64,000 nt of DNA from the NCBI GenBank assembly GCA_014871385.1, contig CM026433.1, forward strand, positions 5,715,585 through 5,779,584, written 5' to 3'. Below, in pieces: positions 3,791-59,027 of the stretch. A program made the translations under genes and the position numbers. Origin of the DNA: Ceratodon purpureus (lineage: Eukaryota > Streptophyta > Bryopsida > Pseudoditrichales > Ditrichaceae). Position 1 is the first letter of the stretch. Each line of letters opens with the position of its first letter. Under the pieces are notes generated by a model, which saw only the letters and a program-made list of their open reading frames with translations, was not told where the DNA came from and searched no databases.

Positions 3791-3798
3791 GTAGTTGT

Positions 3799-5329: not shown

Positions 5330-5334
5330 ACAAG

Positions 5335-5550
5335 ACTTATACGGTTTTGTATACGGTAGATCGTATTTATACTTTGTACATGTATGTATAAGAGTATTAT
5401 ACTTGTACGTATAAATCATGTATTCGTATAGTATGTTCTACTGTATTTATACATGACAAATATACGTATAAAAGTACTCTATATATACGTATAAAATACT
5501 CTACGTATACGGATAGGAATACTCTACGTATACGTACAAAGGGGGGTATA
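5335..5550. repeat. TACGTATA-rich subterminal repeat block
   Basis: At least ten copies of overlapping palindromic words (GTATAC, TACGTATA, GTATTTATAC) occur within about 215 bases, in both orientations. Outside this block such density is absent. It is best read as the subterminal repeat region of the DNA element that follows. Confidence 0.55.
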
Positions 5551-5700
5551 GGTTCAAGTATGTATACATGATGTGGTCAAAGGTTATTACTTCTTATATT
5601 ATCCTTGTCTTTCATGTCTTGAGCCAAAACTAATAGCAGCCAGAAATCCAGTATTTTCCCAAGGCAAAGACTTCTCTACCCGACAACGCCTCCATATGCG

Positions 5701-13881: not shown

Positions 13882-14385
13882 CTCTACAACTCTCCTAAAA
13901 GCACAAAAACCAGTTACCTCTACTCGTTGGATCGCACAAACTAAACCTCGAATCTAAATTCACAGCAAACTACCAAAATCCCTCACTGAAATAATCACAA
14001 TGCAAGTCTAACGCATACAAAATTGGTTGAATCACAAGCTGCTGATGATTCCAGCTCAAGAGCAACTCTGGTTATATGCACAGAGAAAAGTGCAAAACCA
14101 TAAAAGCGTACCAGTGATGTGTCAACCTCTTCGACGCAATACCAAACCAGGACGCCATGTGGATGCATCGACACAGCAACAGGTTACAACATCGTCTCCG
14201 TCGGATGTCCTAAACTCCAACGCCTCCATCATCTGCGAATAACCACAAGCGCAAACTCACAAACACTTGCCACATCGACAGATCAAAACTCGAAGCCACT
14301 GATCGAGTTCCAAATTTGCCGAAACGACCCTAGTTCATCGATGAAAACCGGTTTTCGTCGTTGTACGTAAGGTTTGACAGGGGCT

Positions 14386-26544: not shown

Positions 26545-29500
26545 TCACCAGTAATCACCACAAGAGCAGACGCCATCTTTGAAGTGGTGAAAGCGAGTAA
26601 CGTCCCGGGCCACAATCTCCCTTCCAGTCACCTTCGAGATGAACTTGGTTGCTGTATGGCAATCCGTACACACCCGAAGATTCTTGTACACACGAATTGG
26701 CTTTTCTACAGGTGTGTGCATCATTCCATAAGCAATAGCTAGCTTTTCACTGTGAGAGCAAAGTGCAAGTTCTTTGTCCTCCTCATCAATATTGCGCAAG
26801 ACAAGCCGAGTATCAGGAATGTAACCTTCAACCCTTAACTTTTTGATCAAGTTGTTCAGCACAGAATAAATCTTCTTTGCTTCTGGGTGAGACGTATCTC
26901 CTACAACAAAGCGATGAATCTTATTATTAATCTCAATCCAGCTTACCCCTGGCTCCTTGCGGATACCTCTTTCCTCCATCATGCACCGTATGAATGACAC
27001 TTGATCCCACTGGCCAGCGGCAGCATAGATGTTGGAGAGGAGCACAAATGTAGAAGCACACTCTGGTTCCAACTTGAGAACCTCTTTAGCAGCAAGTTCG
27101 CCCAACTCCACATTACCGTAAGTCCTACACGCACTCACCAAAATTCTCCAAGTCGCTGCATCTGCTTCAACTGGCATGTTGCCAATGAAGATCATTGCTT
27201 CCTCCAAGTGTCCTGCCCGCCCAAGAAGATCCACCATGCACGCATAATGCAACACATTACATTCGATGCCATAGTCTAGCGACATAGCTCGAAAGAGCCG
27301 ACGGCCTTCATCAACAAGGCCTGCATGACTACATGCTGACAATACTGCCACAAATGAGTACCCATCGGGTTTCAGACCATCAGCATTCATCTTCCTGAAT
27401 AATTCTAGGGCTTCTTGGCCACGCCCATGGTCTGCAAGTCCACCAATCATAACGTTCCATGTGATAACATCACGTTCCTCCATTCTATCAAATACTAATC
27501 GGGCTTCATCAATATTCCCACTCTTTGCATACATGTGGACAAGAGCATTAGCCACACGCAAGTCCGACTCAAGTCCTGCTTTCAGTAAATGGCTCTGAAC
27601 CGTCTTCACCCACTCAAAAGACCCCGCACTTGCACAAGCATTCAGAATGCTCAGATAAGTGACTGCATCTGGTTGAAAGCCTTCTCCTTTCATCTGGAGA
27701 TAGAGATGATAAGCCTCAACACCACGACCACTTTCTGCATACGCACCAATCATTGCAGTCCATGTGATGACATCACGTTCCTCCATTCTATCAAATACCA
27801 ATCGGGCATCATCCACACTGCCACTCTTTGCATATTTGTGAACCAGCGCATTGCCCACACGTAAATCGGACTCAAATCCTGCTTCCTGTATTTGGCTGTG
27901 AACCTCCTTCACCCACTCCATAGCCCCTGCGCTTGCTGATGCATTCAAGAGGCATACATATGTAATTGTATCTGGTTTGAAGCCTTCCCGCAGCATTTGG
28001 AGATAGAGTTCATATGCTTCCACACTACAGCCACTTCCTGTATAAACACCAATCATTACGTTCCATGTGATGACATCGCGCTCCTCCATTCTGTCAAATA
28101 CTAGTCGGGCATCATCAATATTCCCACTCTTTGCATACACGTGAACAAGGGCTTTGCCAACACGTAAATCGGACTCAAGTCCTGCTTCTCGTACATGGCT
28201 GTGAACATCCTTCACCCACTCTAAAGCCCCAGCGCTTGCACATGCCTTCAGGATGCTCAGATAAGTGATAGCGTCTGGTTGAAAGCCTTCTCGTTTCATT
28301 TGGAGATAAAGCTTATAGGCCTCAACACCCCGACCATTTTCTGCATACGCACCAATTATCACAGTCCATGTAATCACATTCCGCTCCTTCATCCTGTCAA
28401 ACACTATTTGGGCATCATCAATACTACCACTCTTTGAATACATGTGAACAAGGGCGCTGCCCACATGTAGATCGGACTCAAGTCCTGCTTCCTGAACATG
28501 GCTGTGAACATCCTTCACCCACTCTAAAGCCCCTGCGCTTGCACAAGCATTTAGGATGCTCGCATAAGTGATGGCATCCGGTTGGAAGCCTTCTCTTTTC
28601 ATTTGGAGATAAAGCTGATATGCCTTGACACCATGACCACTCTCTGCATGAGCACCGATTATCGCAGTCCATGTTATTATGTTGCGTTTCTTCATCCTGT
28701 CAAAAATTATTTGAGCATCGTCAATACTTCCAATCTTTGCATACATGTGAATGAGGGCGCTGCCCACACGTACATCCGACTCGAGTCCCTCAGACAAGGC
28801 ATGGCTGTGAATCTCCTTCACCCACTCAAAAGCCCCTGCACTTGCACAAGCATTTAGGATACTAACATAAGTGACTGCATCTGGTTTATTGCCTTTCCGC
28901 TTCATTTGAAGATAGAGATCATAAGCCTCAACACCACGACCACTTTCTGCATACGCCCCAATCATTATGTTCCACGTGATTACATTCCGTTCCTTCATCC
29001 TGTCAAATACTAGTCGGGCTTTATCAATATTCCCACTCTTTGCATACATGTGAACAAGAGCGCTGCACACACGTACATTCGACCCCAGTCCATCTTTGAA
29101 AGCATGGCTGTGAACCTCCTTCACCCACTCAAAAGACCCCGCACTTGCACAAGCATTCAGAATGCTCAGATAAGTGACTGCATCTGGTTGAAAGCCTTCT
29201 CCTTTCATCTGGAGATAGAGATGGTAAGCCTCAACACCACGACCACTTTCTGCATACGCACCAATCATCACGTTCCATGTAATGACATCACGTTCCTCCA
29301 TTCTGTCAAATACCAGTCGGGCATCATCCACACTACCACTCTTTGCATATTTGTGAACCAGCGCATTGCCCACACGTACATCGGACTCAAATCCTGCTTC
29401 CCGTATATGGCGGTGAACCTCCTTCACCCACTCCAAAGCCCCTGCGCTTGCTGATGCTTTCAAGATGCACAGATATGTAATTGCATCTGGCTCGAAGCCT

Positions 29501-30237
29501 TCGTGCAGCATTTGAAGATAGAGTTCATATGCTTCCAAACCACAACCGCTCTCCGCATATGCTCCAACCATCACATTCCAGGAAATGACATTCCGATCGG
29601 TCAAATCATCAAAAAATTGCCGGGCCTCCTTGATACTTCCACAATTTGTATACATCTTAAGGAGCGCAGTTCCTACACGAACATCTGATTCAAAAGCATC
29701 ATGTTTGATATGCATATGGACTTCCCTGCCCCATTTTAGAGCTAACGGGCTGGCACAAGCCTTCAGGATGCTCAAATAAGTAATCTCATCCGCCTGCACA
29801 TTTTCCTGGCGCATTTGATTGAAAATTGCCATTGCTTCTTCAGCACAACTGCGCTGAGCATAACCTCCAATCATGACGTTCCAGCTAATAACATCCTTCT
29901 TCCCAAGTGAATCAAACACTTGGCGTGCGCCATGCAGGTTACCACATCTGATATACACACTCAATAGGTTGTTCGCCACATATACGTTTTGCTCCATTTG
30001 ACTCTTGATGATGCAATCATGAACCTCCTTGGCCGCTTTAAGGTCTGTCTGCTTCAAGCACCGCTTGAGAAGTTCAACATACATGTACGAGTCTACACGA
30101 ATGCCTTGTTCCAGATGATTCTTCACAATAGTAATTGCTTCATTCATGGTACTTGCCTTTTGCATGTGCATGCTGCCACCACCATCTTCTCCATTATGCC
30201 TGAACTTATCAATAGATACTTCATGAGAACAAACCAT
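26545..30237 (-). CDS. PLS-class pentatricopeptide repeat protein with DYW domain (organellar RNA editing factor)
   Basis: An intronless 1230-aa frame. Nine P-type motifs (each starting V/I-I-T/S-W-N/T) alternate with L and S motifs from about residue 45 to 1000, so there are about 27 repeats. Then come E1/E2 motifs, the PG box (RKEPGVSWIEI near 1090) and a complete DYW deaminase domain: HSEKLA zinc/catalytic motif, CTDCH zinc motif and terminal CGDYW. Such proteins enter mitochondria or plastids, bind RNA by one-repeat-one-base recognition and convert a specific C to U. The start is the first ATG of the frame. The N-terminus is not strongly basic, so organelle targeting is inferred from the family. 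The central triplets are strikingly alike, indicating recent internal duplication. Confidence 0.96.
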   Translation of the reverse strand: MVCSHEVSIDKFRHNGEDGGGSMHMQKASTMNEAITIVKNHLEQGIRVDSYMYVELLKRCLKQTDLKAAKEVHDCIIKSQMEQNVYVANNLLSVYIRCGNLHGARQVFDSLGKKDVISWNVMIGGYAQRSCAEEAMAIFNQMRQENVQADEITYLSILKACASPLALKWGREVHMHIKHDAFESDVRVGTALLKMYTNCGSIKEARQFFDDLTDRNVISWNVMVGAYAESGCGLEAYELYLQMLHEGFEPDAITYLCILKASASAGALEWVKEVHRHIREAGFESDVRVGNALVHKYAKSGSVDDARLVFDRMEERDVITWNVMIGAYAESGRGVEAYHLYLQMKGEGFQPDAVTYLSILNACASAGSFEWVKEVHSHAFKDGLGSNVRVCSALVHMYAKSGNIDKARLVFDRMKERNVITWNIMIGAYAESGRGVEAYDLYLQMKRKGNKPDAVTYVSILNACASAGAFEWVKEIHSHALSEGLESDVRVGSALIHMYAKIGSIDDAQIIFDRMKKRNIITWTAIIGAHAESGHGVKAYQLYLQMKREGFQPDAITYASILNACASAGALEWVKDVHSHVQEAGLESDLHVGSALVHMYSKSGSIDDAQIVFDRMKERNVITWTVIIGAYAENGRGVEAYKLYLQMKREGFQPDAITYLSILKACASAGALEWVKDVHSHVREAGLESDLRVGKALVHVYAKSGNIDDARLVFDRMEERDVITWNVMIGVYTGSGCSVEAYELYLQMLREGFKPDTITYVCLLNASASAGAMEWVKEVHSQIQEAGFESDLRVGNALVHKYAKSGSVDDARLVFDRMEERDVITWTAMIGAYAESGRGVEAYHLYLQMKGEGFQPDAVTYLSILNACASAGSFEWVKTVQSHLLKAGLESDLRVANALVHMYAKSGNIDEARLVFDRMEERDVITWNVMIGGLADHGRGQEALELFRKMNADGLKPDGYSFVAVLSACSHAGLVDEGRRLFRAMSLDYGIECNVLHYACMVDLLGRAGHLEEAMIFIGNMPVEADAATWRILVSACRTYGNVELGELAAKEVLKLEPECASTFVLLSNIYAAAGQWDQVSFIRCMMEERGIRKEPGVSWIEINNKIHRFVVGDTSHPEAKKIYSVLNNLIKKLRVEGYIPDTRLVLRNIDEEDKELALCSHSEKLAIAYGMMHTPVEKPIRVYKNLRVCTDCHTATKFISKVTGREIVARDVTRFHHFKDGVCSCGDYW

Positions 30238-39523: not shown

Positions 39524-41834
39524 TCATGCCAACAGAGATTGAGCAGATTCCGCCACTTCATGGCGACACACTCTAGCACTAGAGAAAACCCTTCCCGGCC
39601 TGCAGAAGTAGTTCTGCTCCGGTGCACAATGCTCGTCTCGGCTGCACACGCACAGCCCCTCCAGAGCACAATATGCCCCTACCTTTGTCGCTCCAGGGGC
39701 GCCCTTCTTGTTGATCCCCAGCATAGCGTCCGACCATTCACTAGAAAACAATCCATGCGGGTCATGCTTCATCTTCACTTCCAGGAACTTCTCCATTTCA
39801 GGGTACTTGGTGGCAACACCCTCAAAGGCCACATTCCTGTTCTTCCCCCAGTGAGGCTTACCACCATACTTGTACAGGATCATCTGCTCCAGCTCCGAAA
39901 CCAGGTCCTCGTCGAGCTTCGGAGTGGTGGCATCATAGCCACGGTAGTAATCGAAATGCACGTCAGCCATGTCTTCATGAGGAGCGTTTCCGAGGTAAGC
40001 TCGGTCGGACTGTTTCACAAACCTGAAGAGGAAGCCGCCGTCGTAGAGATCCACATTGCACAAGCCTCCTGGGACCTCCTTCCTCAAGGCCTTGACGTCT
40101 TTGATGAGGCTAGGGCAGCTCCTTACAGGCACAAACGCTGCTGTTTCAAAGAAGTCCCGCCTGCCCTTGATCCTTGGGTCCCAGTCGCAGAAGAGTCCTC
40201 GGTTCTCGGCGCTGGTGGAAGAGCAGCCAATGCTGGTTGAGATGTCGCTCTGGAGCCCGATTACAGGAAAGCCTGTGAAGGTTGTGGCGTTGTTGAGATA
40301 CCCTGCTCCAGAGGGTAAGTATGCGTTTAGCCGAGACGTCGCTAGAGAGCACTTGGCCTCTCTCTGCTTTGTTGTTTCGGCGTGATTCTCTAAGTGGAAG
40401 AACAAGGAGAAAACACTCATCAGTACACCAAGATGTAAGTTAGAACAAGCCCCATTATCAAAAGATATGGAACAACCCTACTGACAGCATAAGTTAACCC
40501 AATTGCAGAAAATATTCGGTCTGTACAAGTTTTACAGAAAACGAATACCGTCGTATGCTCAGTTCGTATACGCAACAGTGTATGCTCAGTACTAGCATAA
40601 AACACTCTACGAAATCGATCTGATCGCCAGTAATTCAAACCGGGCATGACAATTAATTCCGAGAACGAGATTCCAAGATCAAACACAATATCATTCAGCT
40701 CCGGGGATGGAATGCAATGTCAGATAGAATACCTTGTGCTCGAGCAGCCTTGATACTTGAGAGCACTGAGCCCTGAAACCTTGTGTTGACACCATTCCCC
40801 GGCGTCGACAATGGAACCCTCTTTTCCAACCTGTAGATCACCTTGTGCAGCGATGGTACCCACTTCACATCACCAAACTCGTACTCCTTAGAATATGCCT
40901 CAATCCTCTCTTCCAAATCGTCGTCGTCCTCCATCACAAGCTCCACGGAGCGCTTGAAAAGAGGCTTTACTTGCAAGGTGATTGTGGAGATCACCCCGAG
41001 AACCCCGAGAGACACCCTCGCGGCTTTCAGATCTTCATCTCCCTCCCTCAAAGTCACAACTCTGGCATAGTTCTCGGAGGCCGGTGCAGGCACCACGAGA
41101 GTCATCTCCGTCACGTACTCGTGGACGGCACTTCCCCTGTCGAACAGGGAGCTCCCATGAGCGCCGGTGCTCAACAGACCTGCAACAGACAAGCCTGACC
41201 AGTATGGCACATGCGTGAGAGCCAGGCCAGATTCCGCAAGGGCGTCGATCAAGTCCTGGAGCTGGGTGCCGGCCTGTACTGTCACAGTGCCGGCTTCCTT
41301 GTCGATGGATATGATGGAGGCGTAATTGCTTGTGCTCAGGAAGATGCCGTTGTCTCCTCCGGGACACACGAGCTTGGTCATGGAATGGGAGTGCCTGCTT
41401 CCTGCCTTTATCTTCAGATTGTGCTTCACAGCGTGTGCTACAGCCTGAATGATCTCCTCTTCCGTCTTAGGATACACCACCGATGCTGCCTGCAAACGAG
41501 TCCCCACAGGCCAACCCGAATTGGAATCTATGTCTACGAAACCCCAGTACCAAATGAAACGGCAACGAAGTAGCAACCAAGTGGATAAAACAAGTCGACC
41601 AAATTGAGGTATAACATGTAGCGAAAATGACAGAAGAAGACTCAGTACATGGCAAGGAATTCTGTCAGGCCAATATGCATATGCGTTGCCGATCGTACAT
41701 CCAGTTGTATCGCAAACAACAATAGGAGCAGCATCACCGTGGACTCCCGTTAATGCCCAACTGCTCAGGAAGATAGCTGCCACAAGGATAAGACTTGTGA
41801 CGTTACTCTTTCTCTCGCACATTGAGGTCTCCAT
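39524..41834 (-). CDS. GULLO: L-gulono-1,4-lactone oxidase-like FAD enzyme (GULLO), copy 2; 3 exons
   Basis: CDS is complement(39524-40389, 40733-41489, 41649-41834), 602 aa. Splice sites are at the same places as copy 1. The signal peptide, GSRHSHS FAD-domain box, STGAHGSS loop, HWGKN motif and Cys-rich tail are all conserved. Substitutions relative to copy 1 cluster in the signal peptide region (METSMCERKSN versus MESSISERKRK) and around residues 380-400 (LFCDWDPRIKG versus LYCDWDIRVKG). A changed stop adds Leu-Ala. The 159-nt first intron has no stop in the exon 1 frame, so its retention would insert 53 residues without a frameshift. Function as for copy 1; substrate not established. Confidence 0.9.
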
Positions 41835-43256
41835 GATTCTGAAGGATGGGCAAGGAATGTGAGGGAATCAAACCAAGACCTCAAAATTGATCACCCACTT
41901 TGTCCGATGAAAGCAGTATTAGATCTTGAACTCAGACAGAAGGAATGAGCTACTTCTTTTGTGACATGCATTTCGCAACTGCACAGTAAAGCTTCTTAGT
42001 TTGTCACTTCCATGGTACAGATGTGTACGGGAGATGATAGCTGTAAACATAGAATTGAGGTCTAGCAGTGCAAAAAGCCAACTTCCTCCAATAACTAAGG
42101 ATCGAGATTCATCTATCGAAGATCTTTTAACCAGCAGTTCAACTTCACTTCACCTCGATTACCAGCACGATGTGCGACAACAATGTTCTCCTAAAACTAT
42201 CAATCACCCATTCTTTAGCCCCCAATTTAAGAAGAACGCTCACCTAGCTTCATGGTGCGCACTTACGCTATCGCTACAGTACATCTCCATACTGATGCTT
42301 TAGATGTACAAACCAAATTGATCCACTACCATTCACTATCTAGAAAACCTTCTACAAAGAGGAAGCGGCATAAGTACAAAAGTGAAGATGACGAAATTTG
42401 ACGTTTTTGTCCTTAACACGTCAACTAAATTTCTGGCAAGAAAACCTGCTATACACTGTCTCCGAAAAATCTCTCGCATGTGACAATACTTTCCTGCACA
42501 AGTTGATAGTTTACATAAAGGGTATCTTCACCGAAAGTTTGTGAAAAATCTATCAACTTAGGAAAGAAAATATCACAGTTTTCCACAGTTGCTGTCAATC
42601 CCCAAGTGATGCAAAGTAGGAGTCATACAGTGTGCCCACTCCGATCACGTGTCTTACCTGATCCTCACGATGAAATTTCGTAGTTATCCAGCATTTGTCT
42701 GACTGACTTGTAAGTTCCTTGACGTCATACATACGATGCAGACATCACTAACACTCGACTCCTAGTCTCACAATAATAAGACGATGACACGATATTCACA
42801 CAAGTATTCTCAGATTAAGTTCTCCAGAGTCCACAGTAACGTATATATGTTATGTACACATAAAAACCAAATCCATATGCTCTGCCAAACTCATAATATG
42901 TCACTTACTTAGCACTAACAATCATACAAGGTACCAATTACATGCTGCATGCACAGACTGTAAATAAGTCTCTCCTCATTTGATAAACTTCCCAAATGAA
43001 AATGAACAAGTCCAGCCAGGTACACAAAATAGCCAAATCAAATCAATTCATATTGCACAAGCTCTGTTCCCAGAGCACCTCTACATCGTGACAGAGATGA
43101 AGCAGAGCCCAGACTCATCTCCATCTCTGCACCATTCTGTCTCAAGAAAACTCGAACAGTAATTCATCCTGCTCCTAATACTCAAATGTACACTCGCATG
43201 TTCACTAGCGATCAGAATATACACAGGATTCTGCACTCCATGTCTGCAGTGCTTAT
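41835..43256. other. Intergenic region between ELIP copy 2 and GULLO copy 2
   Basis: Diverged homologue of 11440-12965. No further gene seen; it should hold the GULLO promoter. Confidence 0.6.
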
Positions 43257-44175
43257 TTACAAGTTCAGGGAGCTGTGGATGAACCCCAGCAGAGGGCCCT
43301 TCAAGTAGATGTTCTCCGTCACCAGCAGAGCGATCAGCCCGATCATGGCTGCTCGCCCGTTCCACCGCTCGTTCTGCGCATTGAAGGGGCCGTTCTCTCG
43401 GCTGTCGGGAGACTCCTTGTTGTACATCGGGATCAGCGTCGCGGCGATGACGATCGGCGCCACAAACAGGAACCAGATCAGCCCTCTGCCCTCCGTCACC
43501 TGCTCCCACACGCTCTGCCCGGTCAGGATCTCCGCCACAAAGGCCCACGTGATGCCCAACATAGCCAGCCGGCTGTTGATGGTCTCGGGCGCAGGCCCGT
43601 CGAACTTCATCAGACTCTTGGTGCTGGTGTTGCCATCTTCCGGGCGCCGCTCGTTCTCGGGCCGGTAGAATTTCTCCACAGGCGAGCCCTCGAAGATGCG
43701 GAGAGGGTCCTCCTTCTTCTCTGGCTCACGCTTCGTCCCCGGCTGCAGACACACAATTCGTTAGAAACATGTCATTCAGAAACATTGCCATTCTGTAGCT
43801 TCCATCATCTGTGTGCTCACGAAGTTTTACAACAGCAAATAGCTCACATCAACTATGGACTCAATCTGACTGTTCTCAGCATGCCATGAAGTTCATGCTC
43901 GTGCAGAAACATGCGCACGCATTGTTTACAAAAACGTTTATAAAATGCAGTACATTATGCTTCTTCGTACGAAATCAGTGGGCACTTACCAGAGGAGTGT
44001 CCTGCTTGGCAGAAACAACCAAACTGCGCCGCTCCAGCTGCAAAAACCTCGCACCTCGGAACTCCACTCCTCCGAGAAACGAGCTCCTCGCTGTGCTGCC
44101 CCTCGCACCTCCCAGTGACGGAAGCCCAGCCACTGTCTGGGCGCAAGTCCTGCTCAGCATGGAAGAAGCTGCCAT
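43257..44175 (-). CDS. ELIP: Early light-induced protein (ELIP), copy 2; 2 exons
   Basis: CDS is complement(43257-43742, 43990-44175), 223 aa, with exon lengths identical to copy 1 (186 and 486 nt). Residues A12, A29 and E73 are the only differences from copy 1. Both LHC chlorophyll-binding signatures (E114/N117/R119 and E187/N190/R192) and all three helices are intact, so the product should be a working thylakoid photoprotective protein. The gene lies head-to-head with the mL45-like gene (start codons 673 bases apart), so the interval 44176-44848 carries promoters for both. Confidence 0.93.
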
Positions 44176-44848
44176 CTCTATAACTCTCCTAAAATCACAG
44201 AAACCAGTTACCTCTACTCGTTGGATCGCACAAACTAACCCTCGAACCTAAAATCACAGCAAACTACCAAAATCCCTCACTGAAATAATCACAATGCAAG
44301 TCTAACGCATACAAAATTGGTTGAATCACAAGCTGCTGATGGTTCCAGCTCAAGAGCAACTCTGGTTATATGCACAGAGAAAAGTGCAAAACCATAAAAG
44401 CGTACCAGTGATGTGTCAACCTCTTCGACGCAATACCAAACCAGGACGCCATGTGGATGCATCGACACTGCAACAGGTTACAACATCGTCTCCGTCGGAT
44501 ATCCTGAACTCCAACGCCTCCACCATCTGCAAATAACCACAAGCGCAAACTCACAAACACTTGCCACATCGACAGATCAAAACTCGAAGCCACTGATCGA
44601 GTTCCAGATTTGCCGAAACGACTCTTGTTCATCGATGAAAGCCGGTTCTCGATGTTGTTCGGCCCGGTTTTCGTCCGGGCATAAGCCCTAAACCCTCACG
44701 AAAACGCATGATTCCAGTTCATTTGATGGTGTTTGCAGATGCAGGATTTGGAGTTTCACGTTTGGTAGGGTTTTGATCGGCGTTTGAGAGCTCTGGGTGT
44801 GGACCCAATTTTTTTTGAGTGGGTTGTCGGCCAGCATTCGGAGTAGCC

Positions 44849-47800
44849 ATGGGGCATGTGTTACGTTATGGGAGGAGGTTTGCCTCGCAATTGGGTTTTT
44901 CTGGTTCTCGTGCGAGCTTGGGAATCGGTGAGCTTTGTGGCGGTGATGGCAATGGGAAGCTCCTGCAGTCCTTGTTGGGTTCAGTGCGAGGGTTTGCAAT
45001 TAGTGGAGAATCTCGGCTTGGGTTGAGGGATGAGGGTTTTTTGAGGTCTAATGAGCGTCTGGAGTCTTCCTCTGGGGTGACCCTTGGAGCGAGAGATGGC
45101 CTGTCTTCATTGTTGGGCTCATCGGCGTCTTTTTCTCGGAGCTTTTCGTCGAATTCTGCTTCACTGTTCCTTAGAGGTAAGTGGTGCCGTTCATATTCGA
45201 GCTTAAGCTTGTTTAGGAGGACGGGACCTCTGTGGAGTCAGTAATTGAGGATGATGTTTGAGAGGGTTTTAGGAGCATTATGAGCGGTTAGTGGACAGAA
45301 CTTCTCAATTATCTCAACTTTGCTTCCATCAGCGAATTATTAGAGAATTCTTATAAAAAAATATGAAGCGTCCATTCTGTCGAGACTTCAGACATTTCGG
45401 CCCCTCACCTTGCTAGCATGTTCACCTGCGAAAATGTATAAACTGAAACCTCCCAACCTGATTTTCCACCTTACATTGTACCTTTACAGTCTCTATTTGT
45501 GTATCCGTCTAAGCCAAAGCGATACTGTTTTAGGGTTTAACTAGGGCTGTGAATAGATCACCTTCAGTGCTCTTTTCTGCACTATCAGCTTGGGGTATTC
45601 AATAGTCGCAAAATCCCAGTGTATCGTGACTGTTCTAGTTGAGGTTGTTGTGAGAATAGAGATCGTGATAATACTGCACAGCATTTGCTTTCGGTTATGG
45701 TAGGTGGAACTTGCGGTTTAGGGTATCCAATCCTAGCATGCAGAAGAGCAGTGCATTGATATGTAGTTTTGGTTACCCAGTTGCAGGTATGCAGGCGACG
45801 ACGACAGTATATGGCTTAGGTTTTCATCAGCGACAGGATTTGGTATGTAGGCTTCATTCATTTGAATGACTGCGTAACATATGGTTTCTTGGTTTGTTTG
45901 CTGCAGTTGTTTTCAGTTGAAAATGACAGTACAAACCTTGAGTTTAGACGTCCCTGAATTTGCGATATTCTATGGTTCTTCTCAGTCAGATTGCAGCAAT
46001 CAACTGTTTTATTTCATGAGCAGATTACATTTCAAAGTGCTGTGAGAGGGGACCGTGGATTTGCGAAAGCCGTTGCTTTGCCTCCTCAGATGCAAAAGCC
46101 GGTAAGCTAATTCATGACTTTTTTGTGAAGTGTGCAGATTTACAACTTCCAAAGTACTGTTGTTCTGTAGCTCTGTGAGTTGGGAAATACATTAAGAGTA
46201 CGGAAGTTCTATTCTACACTTCTGTGTTGGAATGATTTTCTGGTCGTTACCTTACCTTGTTTTTTGGGTCTCCTAGCACTTCCTTCTAGATGCCTCACCA
46301 TGCTTGACATTGTACAGATGAAATTGCGCGTTTATATGGGTAGTCCTGGAGTAATTGGAGAACCCTGGAAACCTCTGCCTCCGCCACTACCCTTCTTGAA
46401 ACGGTCTGCTCTGATCCAGCATTTAGCAGCTTTCTCTACTGCTATGAAACTTCTCAATAACTATCTGCTACTTGTAGGCAATCTGCAAGAAGCTTCTTTT
46501 ATTTGTTCAACTCTATTTCCTCACCTCTACTGCCTGGATAGATTTCTTTATATGGATAATGTCTTCGCGTCCTAGCAACGCATGCACTTATTATATGCTA
46601 TGTGTTTTTGGGGCCAGATGGTTTACAAAAGAAGGATGGAAGATCAGAAAACAGAATGTTCAAGGCATGGTATGTATCATTAAAACTTTTGTACATCTTG
46701 TTCGTAACTTCGTGATAGTAAAAAGTCATATCAAGAACATGCTGTGCGCTTGTACTTTATCACATACGTACTGATTCACAAACTTTTATCCCCCGAGTGC
46801 GTGATAGTCTATTAATAGCTAAACTTGGTTTTGGATCATCATCATCTGTTGGATACACTGCGCCTGACGCAATAGTCTCTTAAACCTCGTGCGGTTTACT
46901 TCGACTGTTTCAGCTAAAAACAGGTTTTACATTAGCGAAAATACGACAGAAGACAAAAGGCTACAACCAAACCAAGTTTTATCGGGATACCGCTGATCTT
47001 TATAAGGAGGCATGTGTTGCACTTAAATCTCATCACTCTCTTTTCCTTCTGTAAGTTGGCCTGGATTCTTCGATTAAACTGGAGTACAAGCTGAATGAAA
47101 TTCAAAATCAACAGGTCCCTTTTGGCCCCTGGCATTGTTTCACTCCTATTGACATTCAATTGTTGTATGCAGATTAATACCGCTTTGGCAACAGGGGATC
47201 GTTCTGCTCTTCGCCAGCTTGTTACAGACAATGTCTTGACGGTACGTACCAAACCACTCATGTGCTTAAATAAGCTTGAGAGTTGCAGAGACTTTAGCCA
47301 GAAGTAGGTTTGGAGTTATCCTAGTTTGGAGAGGAGGCCACAGGAGATGATCCTTTTCTTAGTAATACACTAGCCGTTCTTTGTATGAATTTGAGAGTCG
47401 ATGGAACTTGCTTGAATGCAGTTCTACCTACTTCAATGTCTGGCACTGAGGACTGTTCGCTGTTCTTTATTTGTCAGACAATGAAAAAAGAGCTGAAGCA
47501 TAGGGAGCAAGCTTGGGCACGAGTTCACTGGGAGCTTGTTGGCCCACTGAAGTCGATTCGGACATTACAGGGCCGTTTGGTGGGTGTCATTTGTCTTGCT
47601 CTCCCTTTGCGGTTTTGGCTGTGGCTTATTTAACGTTCGTTAACAGCTGTCTTACTCTCTGTTTGCGTTTATGGGAGTGACACATTTCATATTCACTAAC
47701 AGCAGGAGTTCTCTTACAGATAGGAATTGATCAGAAGAATATGGACACCGCGTTTGCACAGCTCACCCTCCGTATTATTAGTAACCAGGTAAGGTTCTGG

Positions 47801-48277
47801 AAATATTTGTCAATTCGTCTACATTTGATTTGCTTCCATGCTGTCCACTGTACTCTAGAAATACAGCGTCAGCATTTTTGGCCTCTCGAACTTCTTGATA
47901 CATTAAGGATGCTTAACTATGTTTTCGTGCAGAAATTTGCAGCATATGATAAGCACGGAAAACTTGTTGCTGGGGATCCAGAGAAAGAGGTCAGTTCGTT
48001 TTCAACTCATCTACGTACTCCTCGCGTGTTGCTTAAATTACTGGACGTGTTTTCTAGAATTTTGATCTTTGTCAGATTCTAAAATCGGTATTTGAGGTCT
48101 ATAACATTAGTCCCCTCGAATAACTGTGTTCTATTAGGATCAATGCTGTACAGTCCTAAACACTTACCAAGGTGGGGACGTATTTTACAGCTTAAGGTGG
48201 AGGACATTTGGGTCTTCGAGAGACAAATCTCACATCCAGAGTTGCGGTGGAAGTTGTGTGGACGTCTCTCAGTTTGA
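44849..48277 (+). CDS. Mitochondrial Tim44/ribosomal mL45-like protein, 11 exons
   Basis: CDS joins 44849-45176, 45787-45842, 46024-46101, 46318-46403, 46618-46669, 46914-47009, 47173-47241, 47478-47579, 47720-47788, 47933-47989 and 48191-48277. Phases agree throughout, giving 359 aa. The first ~120 residues are rich in Ser, Arg and Leu (GHVLRYGRRFAS), a mitochondrial presequence. Then come VYMGSPGV, a basic linker (FTKEGWKIRKQ) and the Tim44/mL45 fold: INTALATGDRSALRQLVT, REQAWARVHWELV, a FAAYDKHGKLVAGD hairpin and the closing DIWVFER...WKLCGRLSV. The ending matches what I recall of plant mL45-type proteins. mL45 contacts the inner membrane at the mitoribosome exit; a Tim44-related import role is the alternative. 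Intron 6 begins with GC, not GT. Confidence 0.8.
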
Positions 48278-48840
48278 GCTGTTCAACTCCACCATCTGTT
48301 AGCGAGGATACGATTTTACTAAAGTCAAAGAAACATTACAGTTTTTGCTCCTTATTTCAAAAACCCATTGATCACAGTTCCCAAGCTCACATACTTCGAA
48401 GTCCCCTGAAACAGATCTAGACTAGTGTACAGAGGCCAAACTTCAAAGAGTACGTGAGTTCACAACAGAATCGGGATTTCAGCACGATATAAAGCTCGAA
48501 AGGGTGAAGCATTTGTCACCAAAAAACACGAGGTGTTCCTCGTTCCCAAGTAGATTCGATCAATTACTTATTCTGGCGCTGGCTGGTCCATAATAACAGA
48601 GTTATCATTGTGAGTAATATCCTTGACATACTGATTCGATCCCAACAGCAGACTGTTCCAGTGAGCACAAAAATTCTCATTTACTTTCAGTTTCCCCTTT
48701 TACTTTTCTTCTCAAGTTTTTCATTTTTCTTATCCATTATGCTCTGCACATGTACCGTATCGTTTGGGAAGACTAGAATTGCTTGGTATATATTACAGCT
48801 GAAGCCATATGCCCCTCACATGCGTGGTGAAGGGGTGCTT

Positions 48841-49095
48841 CTGCCCGTGGAGGCAACATGTCTATGAAGGTTCACCTTCTGTCCGTGACCCTTCATCGGT
48901 GCAAAGTGAAATTCCCCGAGCAGTGCCAGGCAGAGATGCCGTCCCGAAAGGGAAGACCTGCTCCAGGGCCTGTCCAGCGGCGTAGAACGTTTGATCAACG
49001 AGCCCTTGCGGCAGGTCCCGGGGCAGTAGCTTGCTACAGCGCAGCCATGCAACCCCACCCGTGAGGGTGAACAGAATGGGGATTACTCTCACCAT
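48841..49095 (-). other. GC-rich 77-codon frame, mirrored in both arms
   Basis: Minus frame 48862-49095 (MVRVIPILFTLTGGVAWLR...) and its right-arm twin at 57349-57582 are nearly identical. The start is hydrophobic, signal-like, and the base composition is much richer in GC than the surroundings, suggesting a captured exon. No domain recognised. Confidence 0.35.
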
Positions 49096-49514
49096 GCCTA
49101 CTTTTTTGTATTTCCAAACATATCCACTCTCAATACTGTGGTGTTTAAACCCTAATTGGCGCCTAGTGGATTTTTCTATTTGTCTTACAACTCTAATTTT
49201 TTTTACTTCACCCCTTAAGTATCTTTGGGATTTTTAATACAAGTAAATAACATGATTGAGATTATTTTGTCTTTTGAAATTTGTCTTTTGAAGTTCTCTG
49301 TAGTAAGGAAATTCATTAGATAAGGAATCAAAGGTTTATCACTCTTTCTGTCAAGATGCAAAAATTTAAAAATCAAAAATTTAAACATTTAAAAAATTAA
49401 AAATATTAAATTAAATTAAATTAAAAATTTTGAATTTTTTTAAACTTTTTTAATTTTAAAGTTTTAAAAAGTCTTTATTACATAAAAGATAGATATTTAC
49501 ATATATAGATGTAG

Positions 49515-49541
49515 ATATATATATATATATATATATATATC
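49515..49541. repeat. (AT)n microsatellite, longer than in the right arm
   Basis: About 13 AT units here; the mirrored tract near 56928-56937 has about 5. It shows that the arms have diverged and are not a simple assembly copy. Confidence 0.85.
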
Positions 49542-50297
49542 TTTTAAAAGATATATTTGGTTTTTTCAACTAATTCATTTAAAGCATTTAAATTTTAAAA
49601 TTCCTAAAATATATTCTCTTCTTTTTTTCTACTTCAAGAATGGCAATAAAACTTTGTTTTAACTATATATATTCGTATTATAATAAAAAATGATTTTTCA
49701 AAAATAAATTATTCATATATCTGAAGTCGTTAGTCTTATACATGGAGTATAAATTGTAGCTTATATATGGAAAAAAGTACCTTGTACGTTAGTTTCTATT
49801 GACAGCTTACTAGATTCTGAACGTGCGTTTATTGCAGATCTTCGATATGTGGAGCTCCTTCTATGATCCATTACGATCATTTGCTGAGTATAAATTACAG
49901 AAGCCGTTAGTATTATATGCATGGTGAAAAACGTCATTGTTCATGTTTCTTTAGCAATAAACTTAGCTGTAAAGGCATGTGACATCAAGAAAGAGTTCAC
50001 ATGAAAGTTATTCGAATATGAAAGATAAGTTGTCAAGATATCTGAAAAAAGAAGTTTGCCAAGTCAGAGTAAGTAGCACACCAAGTATAGATGTCAAAGA
50101 GTTCAATAATTTAGTACACCTCCGGATTGAAGGTACCCAGTCTCAATTCGAAGCTGAAATATCCAACAAGCCATGCTCAAACTTCTCAAATACACAGGTT
50201 CTGACCTGATATTTTGGGTAGAAACTAGGATAAAATGATCATGATAAATTTTCTTAATCAATTCGGAGGGAGCAGTGTGAAAGTCAAAGTCACTCAC

Positions 50298-51287
50298 AAT
50301 TCTGATAGTTGTGGTTGAGATATGTTCTTGGCCCAGTGGGGAACAGGGCCTCCAATATCAAGGTTTGAGATATCAAGCACGCCCAGCCCTTGGGGAAGTG
50401 TACTGAGGAAATGAATTACATTATTTGACAGCCCTATGAAATCGTTCAAACTCAAATTTCTGCAGCACGGATTTGAAGTAGAATTACTTTTGTCATTCAT
50501 ACATCCATTTGATGGCTAAATTCTGTGAACTTACTCTACTCATACTGACCAATGTTCTAAGTTTCGGCAACCAACCTTGTTTTAGAAATTGTGATTTATA
50601 AATAACTCCGCTTAGACTCCTGCCATGATGTAACATCCCTACAAGTCTGCAAGTTCAGGTAGCTAGGAGCTGACCGCCGAACAAGCACAACTTCCTGATC
50701 AAGTGCGATCAAAAGAACGGCAATTTTCAAGACCAAAAACAGTGCCAAGGATTTGCGAAGAACTCACAAGGTTTTCAAGGTGATTAAGTTGTGTAGGTCT
50801 GGCAATGGGCCTCCGAGTTTGTTGTTGGATAAATCTCTGCATTGTAAAGAGTGGAAGCCTTGGCATTGGAAACGTGGGTTTACAAAACGAATAGTATTTT
50901 GGCAATAAGATGAATTCGTGTTCAAAGACCAGGTAAGTCTGGGATACTAAAACATGCTGCATAGTTTTTGAAAAGCATATGCAACTGACAAAAAGTGGCT
51001 TTGAGTCACTCACAAAGAAGTCAAATATGTAGCACCGGCGAAGCTGGACACTGAGCCTGTAAACTTGTTGTTTGATATGTTTCTGCGTAGAGTCAACTTC
51101 GCAGGTCAAGCTAGAACCAACGATGTGATTGCATTATCATGTTATTAAGGTTGCTAAGTACCATTGATTCAGAACTGTATATTTTGTACAAGCCGTGATA
51201 GCACTTACACATAATCAAGATCGGATTCGTGAACTGGAAAGGATTTCGGATCATAGGGACCCTGTGAAGTTGTTCGAAGAAAGATCT
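50298..51287 (-). pseudogene. Mirrored LRR receptor-like gene fragment (left arm)
   Basis: Exons at 50298-50459, 50768-50836 and 51014-51082, plus a damaged one around 51216-51287, are the mirror images of those in the right arm. Here the long exon reads NLSLNDFIGLSNNV, where the right arm has NLSSNDFIGLSNNG. See the right-arm entry for the exon logic. Confidence 0.65.
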
Positions 51288-51850
51288 CTGCACATGATAC
51301 ATCCAAACCACTTGTTGACCTGGAGACTGGAGATATTAATTAAGTTAAACATAATTCCAACAGGAAATTAACTGTTAAATATTCTCCTTAAATAAATCCC
51401 TTCATTAACAAAGTTAATTTCACGTCAAACCTACACATTGTGACTGCCTTAGCATTCTTAATGTTTCAGGTTCTATTGATTCAGATTTCCAAATGTAGGA
51501 ATTCGGTTTAAATGAGTATTGCGCTAACATATATAACCTAGGCCAGTGCAAATTAATGGAGGGCCGGAAAAACATATTCCTCGAAAGATCTCTGCGCAGG
51601 ATTCATGCAAACTATTCGTTTCTTTGGAGAAAGAAATGTTCAAAACCATAAACTGCACAAAATTTCAAGAGTCTCAAAACCAGAGTAGCACTTGTTCATG
51701 CCTCACGAATGCAGGGCTGACTCATCTACCTCCCATTTCTGGCTAGGGTTATAAATCTGATAATTATAATTGAAGTGACTGAGTTAAAACCTTGGACCCC
51801 ACTCCCCACCGCACAAGCTAACTATATATATACAATCATTACCCTCTCAT

Positions 51851-51962
51851 GGTCGGTCGTGGTGTGGCACACTCGGCCAGGGGCTGTGCGGGACGCGTGC
51901 GCCGCGCCCCCACAGCCTTTTGCCCCCAACCCCCGACGTCTCCGGTTCGATTCCCTCCGACC
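51851..51962 (+). mobile_element. tRNA-like SINE head in the left arm (mirrored at 54503-54614, minus)
   Basis: The sequence begins GGTCGGTC and ends CTCCGACC, which can pair like an acceptor stem. It contains an A-box-like TGGCACACTCGGCCAGG and a perfect B box GGTTCGATTCC. The middle is longer and more GC-rich than a tRNA. This points to a tRNA-derived SINE or a degenerate tRNA gene. The mirrored copy shows it was present before the inversion-duplication. Confidence 0.5.
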
Positions 51963-52855
51963 CACTTTTGTGATTTTTTAATTCTCTTCACCCTTTTAAT
52001 TCTTTTCCAGCAACAACTCTGTTTTTTCTCGTTTTATGTATGTCTATGTATGTATGTGCTAAATTAGTAAAAGATTTAGAGGATGTTTAAGGCTTAGGCA
52101 TGTTTTTTGTACACTAGGCCTCATTGACATGACTCAAATGTGATGCAATCCACAACGGTTGAAGAGTTAGAATGTAGGCATAAACCAAAAACAGTAAATA
52201 AAAAACTTCAAATCTATTGTGTTTTTTACTCCATATACACTACATGTACAATATGACTCTAGTACCGGATCGACAAGGATGTGTATTGTTATGGCAATCA
52301 ACTTTAGCCTTACTCCATAAACCAAAATCACTTCTTTTTCTAGAGAATCATCCATCTACATTTACAATGTCAACGGAAACAACCACTCATGGACTAAAAC
52401 TTTCTTCATGAGCAAAGTTCATCCCACCAAGACCCTTATCTTTTGTACTCTCCTCTCCGTATTCTCTTCAATTCCGCCTTTCTTTTGGTTGCCGTATAAG
52501 GCTACAGTGATGTATTCTTATCAATTTGGACCCTCTACAATGACTCTGAATGGAGATCTGATTGTTGCATCCTGAGCCTCTGAGAAGAACGGAAATCTCA
52601 ACAAGTATATATAGTCGAGAGCAAATTCATTTTGGATTTCAAGATATTCACCCCCAACTGAGTTTCGAACCACATTTTGGTTCCCTATCAATAACAACAA
52701 AAAAGACTTTCAACCGTAAGATGTTTATGTAAGCCTATTTCTTGGTCTAGTTTGAAAACCAATGTTTTAATTATTATCTTTCACAACATCGTAACATTCA
52801 ATGTGTGTGTAAAAGCTTTTTTGGGCATTGCTCGAGAGGCATTACTTCCACGGTG

Positions 52856-53609
52856 CTCTCTGAAAATTTATGAATTACAATATTCATACGACACTTAGAC
52901 CAAGTTTCCAAGAGTTTGATATGATTCAGGAGAGAGAAGAAAAAAAAAAGGAAAAATATAGAAGTAGAAGTAAAAATATCGACGAAAGAAATGAAGAAGA
53001 AGAAAAAGAATTCCATCTTCAAAGGGAGTCACTCTAAACAAAGTGTATGTTTATCCCATCAAAATATAGATTGAGGGTGTAGAACTACAAGTATCCTTGT
53101 TGGATTTCAAAATGATTTATAAGGTGGGCCTTCAACTATGAATAATTCCCATGAGCCTCGATTGAGAAAGGAAAAACTAAAAACTTTAAATAAGCACCAA
53201 TAGTTGTCATATACTTGAAGGTGGCCGATGGAAATTTCGCACATTATGCATCTTACTCCACTGCCTACTTGAACGTACTTTTATAACAATGGTTATGGGT
53301 GCTCCATGAAGTGTGATTTCTTCATAGATATATTTTAGCACAAAATTGAATGAAGAGTTAAAAGTAATATTCTTGCTTACGATTTGTACGTATTCGTCTT
53401 CATATCCTTCATCCTTCCATCCACGAACGTGGTGGGGCTCGCCGCACAAGAGGCTAGTTTTATAAAAAAAAAATGAAATATGTTCATAACCAAATCACTA
53501 CTCAAATTCAATATTGGCCTTAGTCCAAAAGTTCACCAATTTTGCAACGGCAGCCTCCATTACTTACAAAAACAAGCTTCAAAGTTTTTAGTAATTATTG
53601 GTCTCACTT
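52856..53609. other. Palindrome spacer, unique sequence
   Basis: About 754 bases not repeated in inverse. An 80-codon minus frame (53207-53449) has no recognised domain. There is a purine-rich tract at 52929-53010. Confidence 0.7.
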
Positions 53610-54502
53610 TGCACCGTGAGAGTAATGCCTCTCGAGCAATGCCCAAAAAAGCTTTTACACACACATTGAATGTTACGATGTTGTGAAAGATAATAATTAA
53701 AACATTGGTTTTCAAACTAGACCAAGAAATAGGCTTACATAAACATCTTACGGTTGAAAGTCTTTTTTGTTGTTATTGATAGGGAACCAAAATGTGGTTC
53801 GAAACTCAGTTGGGGGTGAATATCTTGAAATCCAAAATGAATTTGCTCTCGACTATATACTTGTTGAGATTTCCGTTCTTCTCAGAGGCTCAGGATGCAA
53901 CAATCAGATCTCCATTCAGAGTCATTGTAGAGGGTCCAAATTGATAAGAATACATCACTGTAGCCTTATACGGCAACCAAAAGAAAGGCGGAATTGAAGA
54001 GAATACGGAGAGGAGAGTACAAAAGATAAGGGTCTTGGTGGGATGAACTTTGCTCATGAAGAAAGTTTTAGTCCATGAGTGGTTGTTTCCGTTGACATTG
54101 TAAATGTAGATGGATGATTCTCTAGAAAAAGAAGTGATTTTGGTTTATGGAGTAAGGCTAAAGTTGATTGCCATAACAATACACATCCTTGTCGATCCGG
54201 TACTAGAGTCATATTGTACATGTAGTGTATATGGAGTAAAAAACACAATAGATTTGAAGTTTTTTATTTACTGTTTTTGGTTTATGCCTACATTCTAACT
54301 CTTCAACCGTTGTGGATTGCATCACATTTGAGTCATGTCAATGAGGCCTAGTGTACAAAAAACATGCCTAAGCCTTAAACATCCTCTAAATCTTTTACTA
54401 ATTTAGCACATACATACATAGACATACATAAAACGAGAAAAAACAGAGTTGTTGCTGGAAAAGAATTAAAAGGGTGAAGAGAATTAAAAAATCACAAAAG
54501 TG

Positions 54503-54614
54503 GGTCGGAGGGAATCGAACCGGAGACGTCGGGGGTTGGGGGCAAAAGGCTGTGGGGGCGCGGCGCACGCGTCCCGCACAGCCCCTGGCCGAGTGTGCCA
54601 CACCACGACCGACC
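54503..54614 (-). mobile_element. tRNA-like SINE head, right-arm copy
   Basis: Mirror of 51851-51962 with the same A- and B-box words. Confidence 0.5.
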
Positions 54615-54873
54615 ATGAGAGGGTAATGATTGTATATATATAGTTAGCTTGTGCGGTGGGGAGTGGGGTCCAAGGTTTTAACTCAGTCACTTCAATTATA
54701 ATTATCAGATTTATAACCCTAGCCAGAAATGGGAGGTAGATGAGTCAGCCCTGCATTCGTGAGGCATGAACAAGTGCTACTCTGGTTTTGAGACTCTTGA
54801 AATTTTGTGCAGTTTATGGTTTTGAACATTTCTTTCTCCAAAGAAACGAATAGTTTGCATGAATCCTGCGCAG

Positions 54874-56167
54874 AGATCTTTCGAGGAATATGTTTTTCCG
54901 GCCCTCCATTAATTTGCACTGGCCTAGGTTATATATGTTAGCGCAATACTCATTTAAACCGAATTCCTACATTTGGAAATCTGAATCAATAGAACCTGAA
55001 ACATTAAGAATGCTAAGGCAGTCACAATGTGTAGGTTTGACGTGAAATTAACTTTGTTAATGAAGGGATTTATTTAAGGAGAATATTTAACAGTTAATTT
55101 CCTGTTGGAATTATGTTTAACTTAATTAATATCTCCAGTCTCCAGGTCAACAAGTGGTTTGGATGTATCATGTGCAGAGATCTTTCTTCGAACAACTTCA
55201 CAGGGTCCCTATGATCCGAAATCCTTTCCAGTTCACGAATCCGATCTTGATTATGTGTAAGTGCTATCACGGCTTGTACAAAATATACAGTTCTGAATCA
55301 ATGGTACTTAGCAACCTTAATAACATGATAATGCAATCACATCGTTGGTTCTAGCTTGACCTGCGAAGTTGACTCTACGCAGAAACATATCAAACAACAA
55401 GTTTACAGGCTCAGTGTCCAGCTTCGCCGGTGCTACATATTTGACTTCTTTGTGAGTGACTCAAAGCCACTTTTTGTCAGTTGCATATGCTTTTCAAAAA
55501 CTATGCAGCATGTTTTAGTATCCCAGACTTACCTGGTCTTTGAACACGAATTCATCTTATTGCCAAAATACTATTCGTTTTGTAAACCCACGTTTCCAAT
55601 GCCAAGGCTTCCACTCTTTACAATGCAGAGATTTATCCAACAACAAACTCGGAGGCCCATTGCCAGACCTACACAACTTAATCACCTTGAAAACCTTGTG
55701 AGTTCTTCGCAAATCCTTGGCACTGTTTTTGGTCTTGAAAATTGCCGTTCTTTTGATCGCACTTGATCAGGAAGTTGTGCTTGTTCGGCGGTCAGCTCCT
55801 AGCTACCTGAACTTGCAGACTTGTAGGGATGTTACATCATGGCAGGAGTCTAAGCGGAGTTATTTATAAATCACAATTTCTAAAACAAGGTTGGTTGCCG
55901 AAACTTAGAACATTGGTCAGTATGAGTAGAGTAAGTTCACAGAATTTAGCCATCAAATGGATGTATGAATGACAAAAGTAATTCTACTTCAAATCCGTGC
56001 TGCAGAAATTTGAGTTCGAACGATTTCATAGGGCTGTCAAATAATGGAACTCATTTCCTCAGTACACTTCCCCAAGGGCTGGGCGTGCTTGATATCTCAA
56101 ACCTTGATATTGGAGGCCCTGTTCCCCACTGGGCCAAGAACATATCTCAACCACAACTATCAGAATT
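54874..56167 (+). pseudogene. LRR receptor-like gene fragment, short LRR exons with splice sites (right arm)
   Basis: Exons start after a TGCAG/CGCAG acceptor and end at a GTGAGT-type donor. 55383-55451 reads NISNNKFTGSVSSFAGATYLTS. 55629-55697 reads DLSNNKLGGPLPDLHNLITLKT. 56006-56167 reads NLSSNDFIGLSNNGT and then DISNLDIGGPVPHWA. The first two are 69 nt with the same phase, as in plant LRR receptor kinases where one exon carries one repeat. Two further candidate exons are damaged: at 55178 DLSSNNFTGSL runs into a stop, and at 54874 only DLSRN remains. No kinase, malectin or transmembrane part was found, so this is a captured or decaying fragment. Confidence 0.68.
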
Positions 56168-57781
56168 GTGAGTGACTTTGACTTTCACACTGCTCCCTCC
56201 GAATTGATTAAGAAAATTTATCATGATCATTTTATCCTAGTTTCTACCCAAAATATCAGGTCAGAACCTGTGTATTTGAGAAGTTTGAGCATGGCTTGTT
56301 GGATATTTCAGCTTCGAATTGAGACTGGGTACCTTCAATCCGGAGGTGTACTAAATTATTGAACTCTTTGACATCTATACTTGGTGTGCTACTTACTCTG
56401 ACTTGGCAAACTTCTTTTTTCAGATATCTTGACAAGTTATCTTTCATATTCGAATAACTTTCATGTGAACTCTTTCTTGATGTCACATGCCTTTACAACT
56501 AAGTTTATTGCTAAAGAAACATGAACAATGACGTTTTTCACCATGCATATAATACTAACGGCTTCTGTAATTTATACTCAGCAAATGATCGTAATGGATC
56601 ATAGAAGGAGCTCCACATATCGAAGATCTACAATAAACGCACGTTCCGAATCTAGTAAGCTGTCAATAGAAACTAACGTACAAGGTACTTTTTTCCATAT
56701 ATAAGCTACAATTTATACTCCATATATAAGACTAACGACTTCAGATATATGAATAATTTATTTTTGAAAAATCATTTTTTATTATAATACGAATATACAT
56801 AGTTAAAACAAAGTTTTATTGCCATTCTTGAAGTAGAAAAAAAGAAGAGAATACATTTTAGGATTTTTAAAATTTATATGCTTTAAATGATTTAGTTGAA
56901 AAAACTAAATATATCTTTTAAATTATATATATATGTAAATATCTATCTTTTATGTAATAAAGACTTTTCAAAACTTTAAAATTAAAAAATTAAAAAAAAT
57001 TAAAATAATTTAATTTAATTTCATTTAATATTTTGAATTTTTTGAATTTTTAAATTTTTTATTTTTAAATTTTTGCATCTTGACAGAAAGAGTGATAAAC
57101 CTTTGATTCCTTATCTAATGAATTTCCTTACTACAGAGAACTTCAAAAGACAAATTTCAAAAGACAAAATAATCTCAAAGACAACCAATCATGTTATTTA
57201 TTTGTATTAAAAATCCCAAAGATACTTAAGGGGTGAAGTAAAAAAAATTAGAGTTGTCAGACAAATAGAAAAATCCACTAGGCGCCAATTAGGGTTTAAA
57301 CACCACAGTATTGAGAGTGGATATGTTTGGAAATACAAAAAAGTAGGCATGGTGAGAGTAATCCCCATTCTGTTCACCCTCACGGGTGGGGTTGCATGGC
57401 TGCGCTGTAGCAAGCTACTGCCCCGGGACCTGCCGCAAGGGCTCGTTGATCAAACGTTCTACGCCGCTGGACAGGCCCTGGAGCAGGTCTTCCCTTTCGG
57501 GACGGCATCTCTGCCTGGCACTGCTCGGGGAATTTCACTTTGCACCGATGGAGGGTCACGGACAGAAGGTAAACCTTCATAGACATGATGCCTCCACGGG
57601 CAGAAGCACTCCTTCACCACGCGTGTGGGAGACGTATTGCTTCAGCTGCAATATATACCAAGCAATTCTAGTCTTTCCAAACGATACGGTACATGTGCAG
57701 AGCATAATGAATAAGAAAAGTGAAAGAGGAAATTTAGTTTGGATCGGAAAACATCTGTTTCAGGGGACTTCGAAGTATGTG

Positions 57782-57835
57782 AGCTTGGGAACTGTAATTA
57801 GCTTGGGAACTGTAATTTGCTTGGGAATTGTAGTT
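57782..57835 (+). repeat. Three tandem 18-bp units at the outer edge of the right arm
   Basis: AGCTTGGGAACTGTAATT at 57782 and 57800, and a variant at 57818. The left arm has a single copy at the mirrored place, so the expansion happened at the junction. Confidence 0.85.

Positions 57836-57983: not shown

Positions 57984-59027
<1,044 letters not shown>

Follow-up and report, generated by a model that had tools for sequence, protein, structure and literature searches.

A 9.4-kb palindrome in the moss Ceratodon purpureus as a candidate inverted duplication of an RNase MRP RNA gene

Introduction

What is the large palindrome that lies between two convergent genes in the moss Ceratodon purpureus, and through what product, if any, does it act? 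The DNA concerned is a stretch of 64,000 nucleotides (hereafter the window) from the GenBank assembly GCA_014871385.1, contig CM026433.1, positions 5,715,585 to 5,779,584 of the forward strand; window coordinates are used below unless another location is named. An earlier note, made from the letters of the sequence, had described a giant imperfect palindrome here and proposed that transcription through its spacer would yield a very long hairpin RNA, a source of small interfering RNA (siRNA). We report that each arm of the palindrome contains a match to RNase MRP RNA, a component of an enzyme that processes ribosomal RNA (rRNA). We read the locus, with confidence somewhat above even, as a segmental duplication, inverted and about 4.4 kb long, which would have doubled an RNase MRP RNA gene with a plant snRNA-type promoter (snRNA, small nuclear RNA) for RNA polymerase III (Pol III), the arms having since exchanged sequence. 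A duplication that pairs two RNA genes describes the locus better than a hairpin source of small RNAs does.

Results

The palindrome consists of two inverted arms around a 754-bp spacer

The earlier note had proposed aligning one arm with the reverse complement of the other; self-BLAST returned that inverted match and, with it, the giant imperfect palindrome. The main arm on the left (48719-52856) matched 57725-53611 on the minus strand at 97.95% identity over 4149 columns, and an outer block at 48374-48416 matched 57795-57753 at 100%. The left arm (48374..52856, plus strand) is composed of this 43-bp outer block, a 302-bp stretch without a counterpart on the right, and the main arm, whereas the right arm (53611..57795, minus strand) is its inverted copy. 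A spacer of 754 bp (52857..53610, plus strand) separates the two. The whole structure measures about 9.4 kb, with arms of 4.2-4.5 kb. Mirrored coordinates had been said to add up to 106465, and they do so exactly at 50449/56016 and 51793/54672; the sum is 106467 at the inner end, and further out it shifts via indels to 106444 and then to 106169.

The claim that the arms are separate sequences also held, as they are distinguished by 43 counted substitutions, several indels and the 302-bp difference. The latter corresponds to a gap previously put at about 285 bp; the gap is real, but its size had to be corrected, with 302 bases on the left (48417..48718, plus strand) facing 27 other bases at 57726-57752, a net difference of 275. 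The inner 65 bases of the 302-bp stretch agree with a relative on C3, and because the left arm matches this relative out to 48654, the difference near the outer end was probably produced by a deletion in the right arm. The search used at E<=1e-10, which covered an uninterrupted 224 kb including the window and 20 kb each of C5 and C3, brought up no further inverted repeat of 200 bp or more whose arms lie within 10 kb of each other. As far as one assembly can tell, the inverted duplication is real.

Each arm carries a full-length match to RNase MRP RNA

The whole window gave only two Rfam matches above the gathering threshold, both to RNase MRP RNA and one in each arm. With the covariance model RF00030 (curated cut-off 50 bits), the left copy at 48820..49098 (plus strand) scored 60.7 bits and the right copy at 57346..57624 (minus strand) 58.1 bits, each over model positions 1-266. 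The two genes are oriented inward and differ from each other at 5 positions inside the gene. Throughout the genome, where the best candidates of each RNA family were scored (from 26 of 2104 for MRP to 48 of 30530 for U6), six matches to RF00030 were listed. Four of them exceeded the cut-off, namely one on C5 (75.2 bits), the two in the arms and one on C3 (53.2 bits); the two sub-threshold matches were left out of the counts. The same search at E<=1 gave matches in 11 of 14 control genomes, over the cut-off in none of them. The left arm and the C3 locus are 76% alike over 48654-49441, and the 5' domain of the RNA is longer in both arms and on C3 than on C5.

Upstream sequences of four U3 and three U6 genes of this genome served as yardsticks for the promoter, and the upstream sequence element (USE) of the U6 gene on C11, CCCATATCGTTTGG, as the reference. 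The seven U3 and U6 promoters have this element 64 bases upstream of the gene, matching it at 11-14 of its 14 positions, and the distance from USE to TATA box is 33 bases in five of them and 35 in two. In the left arm, a USE-like element, ACCGTATCGTTTGG, was found at 48754..48767 (plus strand); it matches the reference at 12/14 bases. The Rfam match begins 66 bases downstream of this element's start, and a TATA box (48787..48793, plus strand) follows the element at a spacing of 33 bases. A score of 12/14 was reached by 1 and 2 of 5000 shuffles. The right arm has an identical element at 57677..57690 and a TATA box at 57651..57657 (both minus strand). Behind the genes, runs of six T residues (T6) resembling a Pol III terminator are located at 49102..49107 (plus strand) and 57337..57342 (minus strand). 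The promoter of the C3 copy is similar (12/14, spacing 33), that of the C5 copy less so (11/14, spacing 37). The USE, the TATA box and the T6 run are unchanged between the arms, even though the 96 aligned bases that precede the gene include 9 differences. Both MRP copies would be expected to be transcribed by RNA polymerase III.

The inner parts of the arms are identical

The 43 substitutions counted between the arms over 48724-52846 all lie at or before 50448. In the outer part of about 1.7 kb, 43 of 1,694 aligned sites differ (2.5%), compared to 0 of 2,396 in the inner tract (50449..52846, plus strand), which equals the right arm at 2,396/2,396 aligned sites and departs from it by one 2-bp TA indel. 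When the positions of the 43 differences were permuted 20,000 times, no permutation gave a clean run as long as this one, the longest measuring 1,185. Part of the tract belongs to a receptor-like-kinase gene fragment (50030-51847) with a close relative on C4; at 28 columns of this fragment the arms are alike but unlike C4, and at 3 the arms differ from each other. With C3 as the outgroup, 26 arm differences could be compared, 13 of which are right-derived, 8 left-derived and 5 unassigned.

Judged from the aligned arms, gene conversion from arm to arm would explain the identical inner tract best. The divergence boundary falls inside the C4-like fragment, where copying of one arm onto the other would place it, whereas it would lie elsewhere had the inner part been inserted later as a whole. 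A smaller clean stretch is found in the MRP gene itself, the last 204 bases of which show 0 differences versus 14/171 just upstream (Fisher p 1.2e-5); selection or a further conversion patch could have produced it.

The junctions offer a clue to the origin of the structure. Read inward, the right half has arm and spacer in the order seen in relatives on C4 and C12, except that about 298 bp are missing. On the other side, the left arm joins the spacer where these relatives continue into other sequence, and the bases TGC are common to both sides of the junction, as judged by eye. Because the order of the right half matches the relatives and the left junction has this common TGC, a template switch or microhomology joining may have linked the left arm to the spacer. 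Gene conversion between the arms would have followed, its latest round affecting the inner half. If the locus acts at all, it would do so through MRP gene dosage and homogenisation rather than through hairpin RNA.

The rest of the arms consists of a gene fragment and dispersed repeats

Inward of the MRP genes, each arm contains a 5' fragment of a receptor-like-kinase gene without the kinase part (50030..51847, minus strand, on the left; 54618..56436, plus strand, on the right), directed outward in both arms. The fragment is 98% identical to a sequence on C4 and 81-83% identical to five further loci. Its own pieces gave no Pfam match; the receptor-kinase label was assigned because the relative on C10 runs on into a kinase domain (PF07714, 2e-27), the relative on C4 has a weak kinase match (best E 0.00099), and the fragment contains what we take, by eye, to be a leucine-rich motif.

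Nearer to the centre, a dispersed repeat of about 640 bp occupies 52049..52686 (plus strand), with its right-arm copy at 53781-54416, and another dispersed repeat lies within the spacer (52857..53473, plus strand). The segment 51793-52856 together with the spacer is also present on C4 and C12, where the spacer is reversed relative to the arm and about 300 bp lie between them. C4 (10668686-10673273) has an inverted repeat that shares sequence with the window palindrome, its repeat segment included; the 834-bp arms are 99.8% alike and enclose part of a receptor-like-kinase gene. On C12 (2749907-2787445), tandem units of 7.17 kb are arranged in mirror image over about 36 kb, judging by the matches listed; in the part that was read, arms of 4,016 bp, 99.9% alike, flank a centre of 2.9 kb, and the repeat segment of the palindrome is present here too. 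The 2.9-kb centre of this array bears a fragment of the SINA-type RING/zinc-finger kind. Two inverted copies of the spacer repeat, about 1.9 kb apart, were also seen on C3 (3740503-3743640). A tRNA-like stretch (tRNA, transfer RNA) recognised by eye near 51850-51970 was rejected, as ARAGORN returned 0 genes in the window and Rfam nothing at that place.

Other RNA genes of the genome also occur in mirror image

In all five inverted RNA-gene pairs whose sequences were read, the two members align over essentially the whole 551-651 bp. Identities are 92.4, 99.5 and 100% for the U6 pairs on C2, C11 and C13, and 97.5 and 100% for the U3 pairs on C4 and C9. From coordinates only, three groups of four U5 genes on C11 (8194685-8197619, 9432340-9438979 and 7839523-7850606) each have a mirror axis exact to the base and equal scores in mirror positions. 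Four U1 genes on C4 (6063541-6077488), likewise located by coordinates, show near mirror symmetry, with sums that differ by 5 and a U2 match between them.

Orientation was then counted for neighbours at most 30 kb apart among the matches listed. For U6, U3, U2 and MRP, 17 neighbours are inverted and 5 direct, and those with equal scores are 13 inverted and 0 direct. Over all eight families, among the matches listed, 35 inverted neighbours compare with 27 direct (p 0.19); restricted to equal scores the ratio is 22 to 5 (p 0.0008), a figure in which discovery and test data are mixed. We put forward tentatively, as a suggestion less likely than our reading of the MRP locus, that this moss recurrently holds MRP, U6, U3, U5 and U1 genes in palindromes and homogenises them by intrachromosomal gene conversion, perhaps because its recombination-prone genome loses direct repeats and keeps inverted ones.

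Flanking genes and other features of the window

As the earlier note had it, the palindrome is placed between the 3' ends of convergent mL45-like and deaminase-like genes. The left one (44849..48277, plus strand, start approximate, stop codon 48275-48277) encodes a Tim44 domain; the match (1.6e-14) was obtained with the exons joined, and whole-frame domain scans of this gene gave no match. The right one (57984..59027, minus strand, start approximate, stop codon 57984-57986) has a cytidine-deaminase domain and is guanine-deaminase-like. From the palindrome to the stop codons there are 96 bases on the side of the Tim44-domain gene and 188 bases on the side of the deaminase gene.

Elsewhere in the window, 9159-14364 and 39532-44658 form a direct duplication about 30 kb apart, 92-95% alike in the main blocks, with reading frames that we presume, by eye, to resemble an oxidase and an ELIP-type gene. 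At 27441-29591 there are about 7 tandem copies of a 303-bp unit with 79% matches. Two direct repeats of 2.44 kb, 6.25 kb apart and 99.96% identical, bound C13:5710134-5721269, one end of which is window 3243-5685; this is possibly a young long terminal repeat (LTR) retrotransposon extending into the window.

Discussion

The features described above point to an inverted duplication of an RNase MRP RNA gene whose arms have exchanged sequence, but a number of observations weigh against this reading or parts of it. The microhomology at the left junction is 3 bases only and was judged by eye. Outside the counted range, the arms also mismatch at both positions of 52847-52848, eight bases short of where the arm ends internally. 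Low divergence extends past the MRP gene, with 2 differences in 262 bases, and because of this the clean core of the gene may be a conversion patch rather than a product of selection. A consensus fold of the four MRP copies has 7 of 83 pairs changed on both sides and a covariation term of +1.5, which does not favour the fold; four sequences are too few to establish the structure. The C5 copy scores higher (75.2 bits) than the arm copies (60.7 and 58.1 bits); going by these scores, it may be the main MRP gene and the arm copies decaying duplicates. For the identical inner tract, a second, recent inverted duplication of the inner arms is an alternative to conversion that, on the same alignments, would also yield the shared differences from C4, and the identity could in part have come from assembly or polishing. 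As for the wider pattern, the prediction stated beforehand, that equal-score neighbours are inverted, was unconfirmed among the matches listed for U5, U1, U4 and the signal recognition particle (SRP) RNA (9 inverted, 5 direct, p 0.21); all neighbours among the matches listed for these families are 18 inverted and 22 direct. A general bias in the orientation of RNA-gene neighbours is thus not supported, although individual mirror groups stand.

Of the other explanations, the one that survives best is that the structure is a neutral accident: an inverted duplication without effect, its MRP copies turning into pseudogenes and its arms homogenised because nearby inverted repeats convert. The lower scores of the arm copies relative to C5 fit this account, as do the large share of each arm taken up by a gene fragment and dispersed repeats, and the occurrence of the same repeat-rich segment in inverted arrangements on C4 and C12. 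We nevertheless consider it unlikely, as no change between the arms is seen in the promoter elements, in the T-run or towards the 3' end of the MRP gene, while bases just upstream differ.

A more doubtful proposal is the long-hairpin locus that the earlier note had in mind, in which read-through would give a duplex of more than 2 kb, diced into small RNAs that silence related receptor-kinase genes. Arm identity of 2.4 kb around a 754-bp loop would suit such a function, and so would a gene fragment with 98% identity to C4 and 81-83% to five further loci; both flanking genes are directed into the palindrome, with stops 96 and 188 bases away, and read-through from them is possible. The notion of a siRNA source nonetheless found no support: the inward-directed MRP units terminate in T6, the receptor-kinase fragment is directed away from the spacer on either side, and no promoter pointing towards the spacer was identified, though no promoter scan was run.

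It is very improbable that the palindrome is a fold-back or other transposable element with the arms as its long inverted ends. Dispersed repeats do occur inside it, and 51793-52856 with the spacer is found in inverted arrangements on both C4 and C12. Each arm, however, is pieced together from an RNA gene, part of a host gene and repeats; what the relatives on C4 and C12 have in common with the arms is inner segments only, the matches end at other places, and the pieces read there are without an MRP match. No transposase domain was detected in the C12 pieces scanned (two in six frames, and 2400-4067 of another in three). An assembly artefact is just as improbable: there is a single assembly and the inner arms are identical, but 43 counted substitutions, several indels, the 302-bp difference and the spacer set the arms apart, and a palindrome made by a chimeric read would presumably be without such differences.

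Under the reading that we prefer, of an MRP gene doubled in mirror image, the locus is notable for the pair itself and for the sharp transition from diverged to identical arm sequence. If the U5, U6 and U3 mirror groups are of the same kind, they would allow arm identity to be compared with RNA-gene function and orientation in several cases that arose independently in nature, and concerted evolution of dispersed snRNA genes would thereby become directly testable in a recombination-prone plant. A search of literature titles, which is no proof of absence, found none on snRNA or MRP palindromes in mosses.

Near-identical neighbouring genes in Physcomitrella have been attributed to gene conversion (PMC3045890, citing Lang 2008). 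The two cases are alike in that a moss keeps duplicates similar and conversion is proposed; they differ in that the Physcomitrella genes are described as tandemly arrayed. As in RNase MRP RNA genes of the family RF00030, each copy in the palindrome has a full-length model match, a USE/TATA promoter and a T-run, but here two copies mirror each other, and additional ones are located on C5 and C3.

Plants have inverted-repeat silencing loci, and the present locus resembles them as an inverted duplication that includes part of a gene with homologues elsewhere; it differs in that no spacer-facing promoter was identified, in an analysis without a promoter scan. Palindromes that bear genes and undergo arm-to-arm gene conversion are best known from mammalian Y chromosomes. 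The moss locus shares with these the inverted arms, the short spacer, genes in both arms and a stretch more alike than the rest predicts. Unlike the Y palindromes, it is small, with arms of 4.2-4.5 kb, it lies on a 16.5-Mb contig rather than on the giant contig of this genome, and its intact-looking cargo is a non-coding RNA gene.

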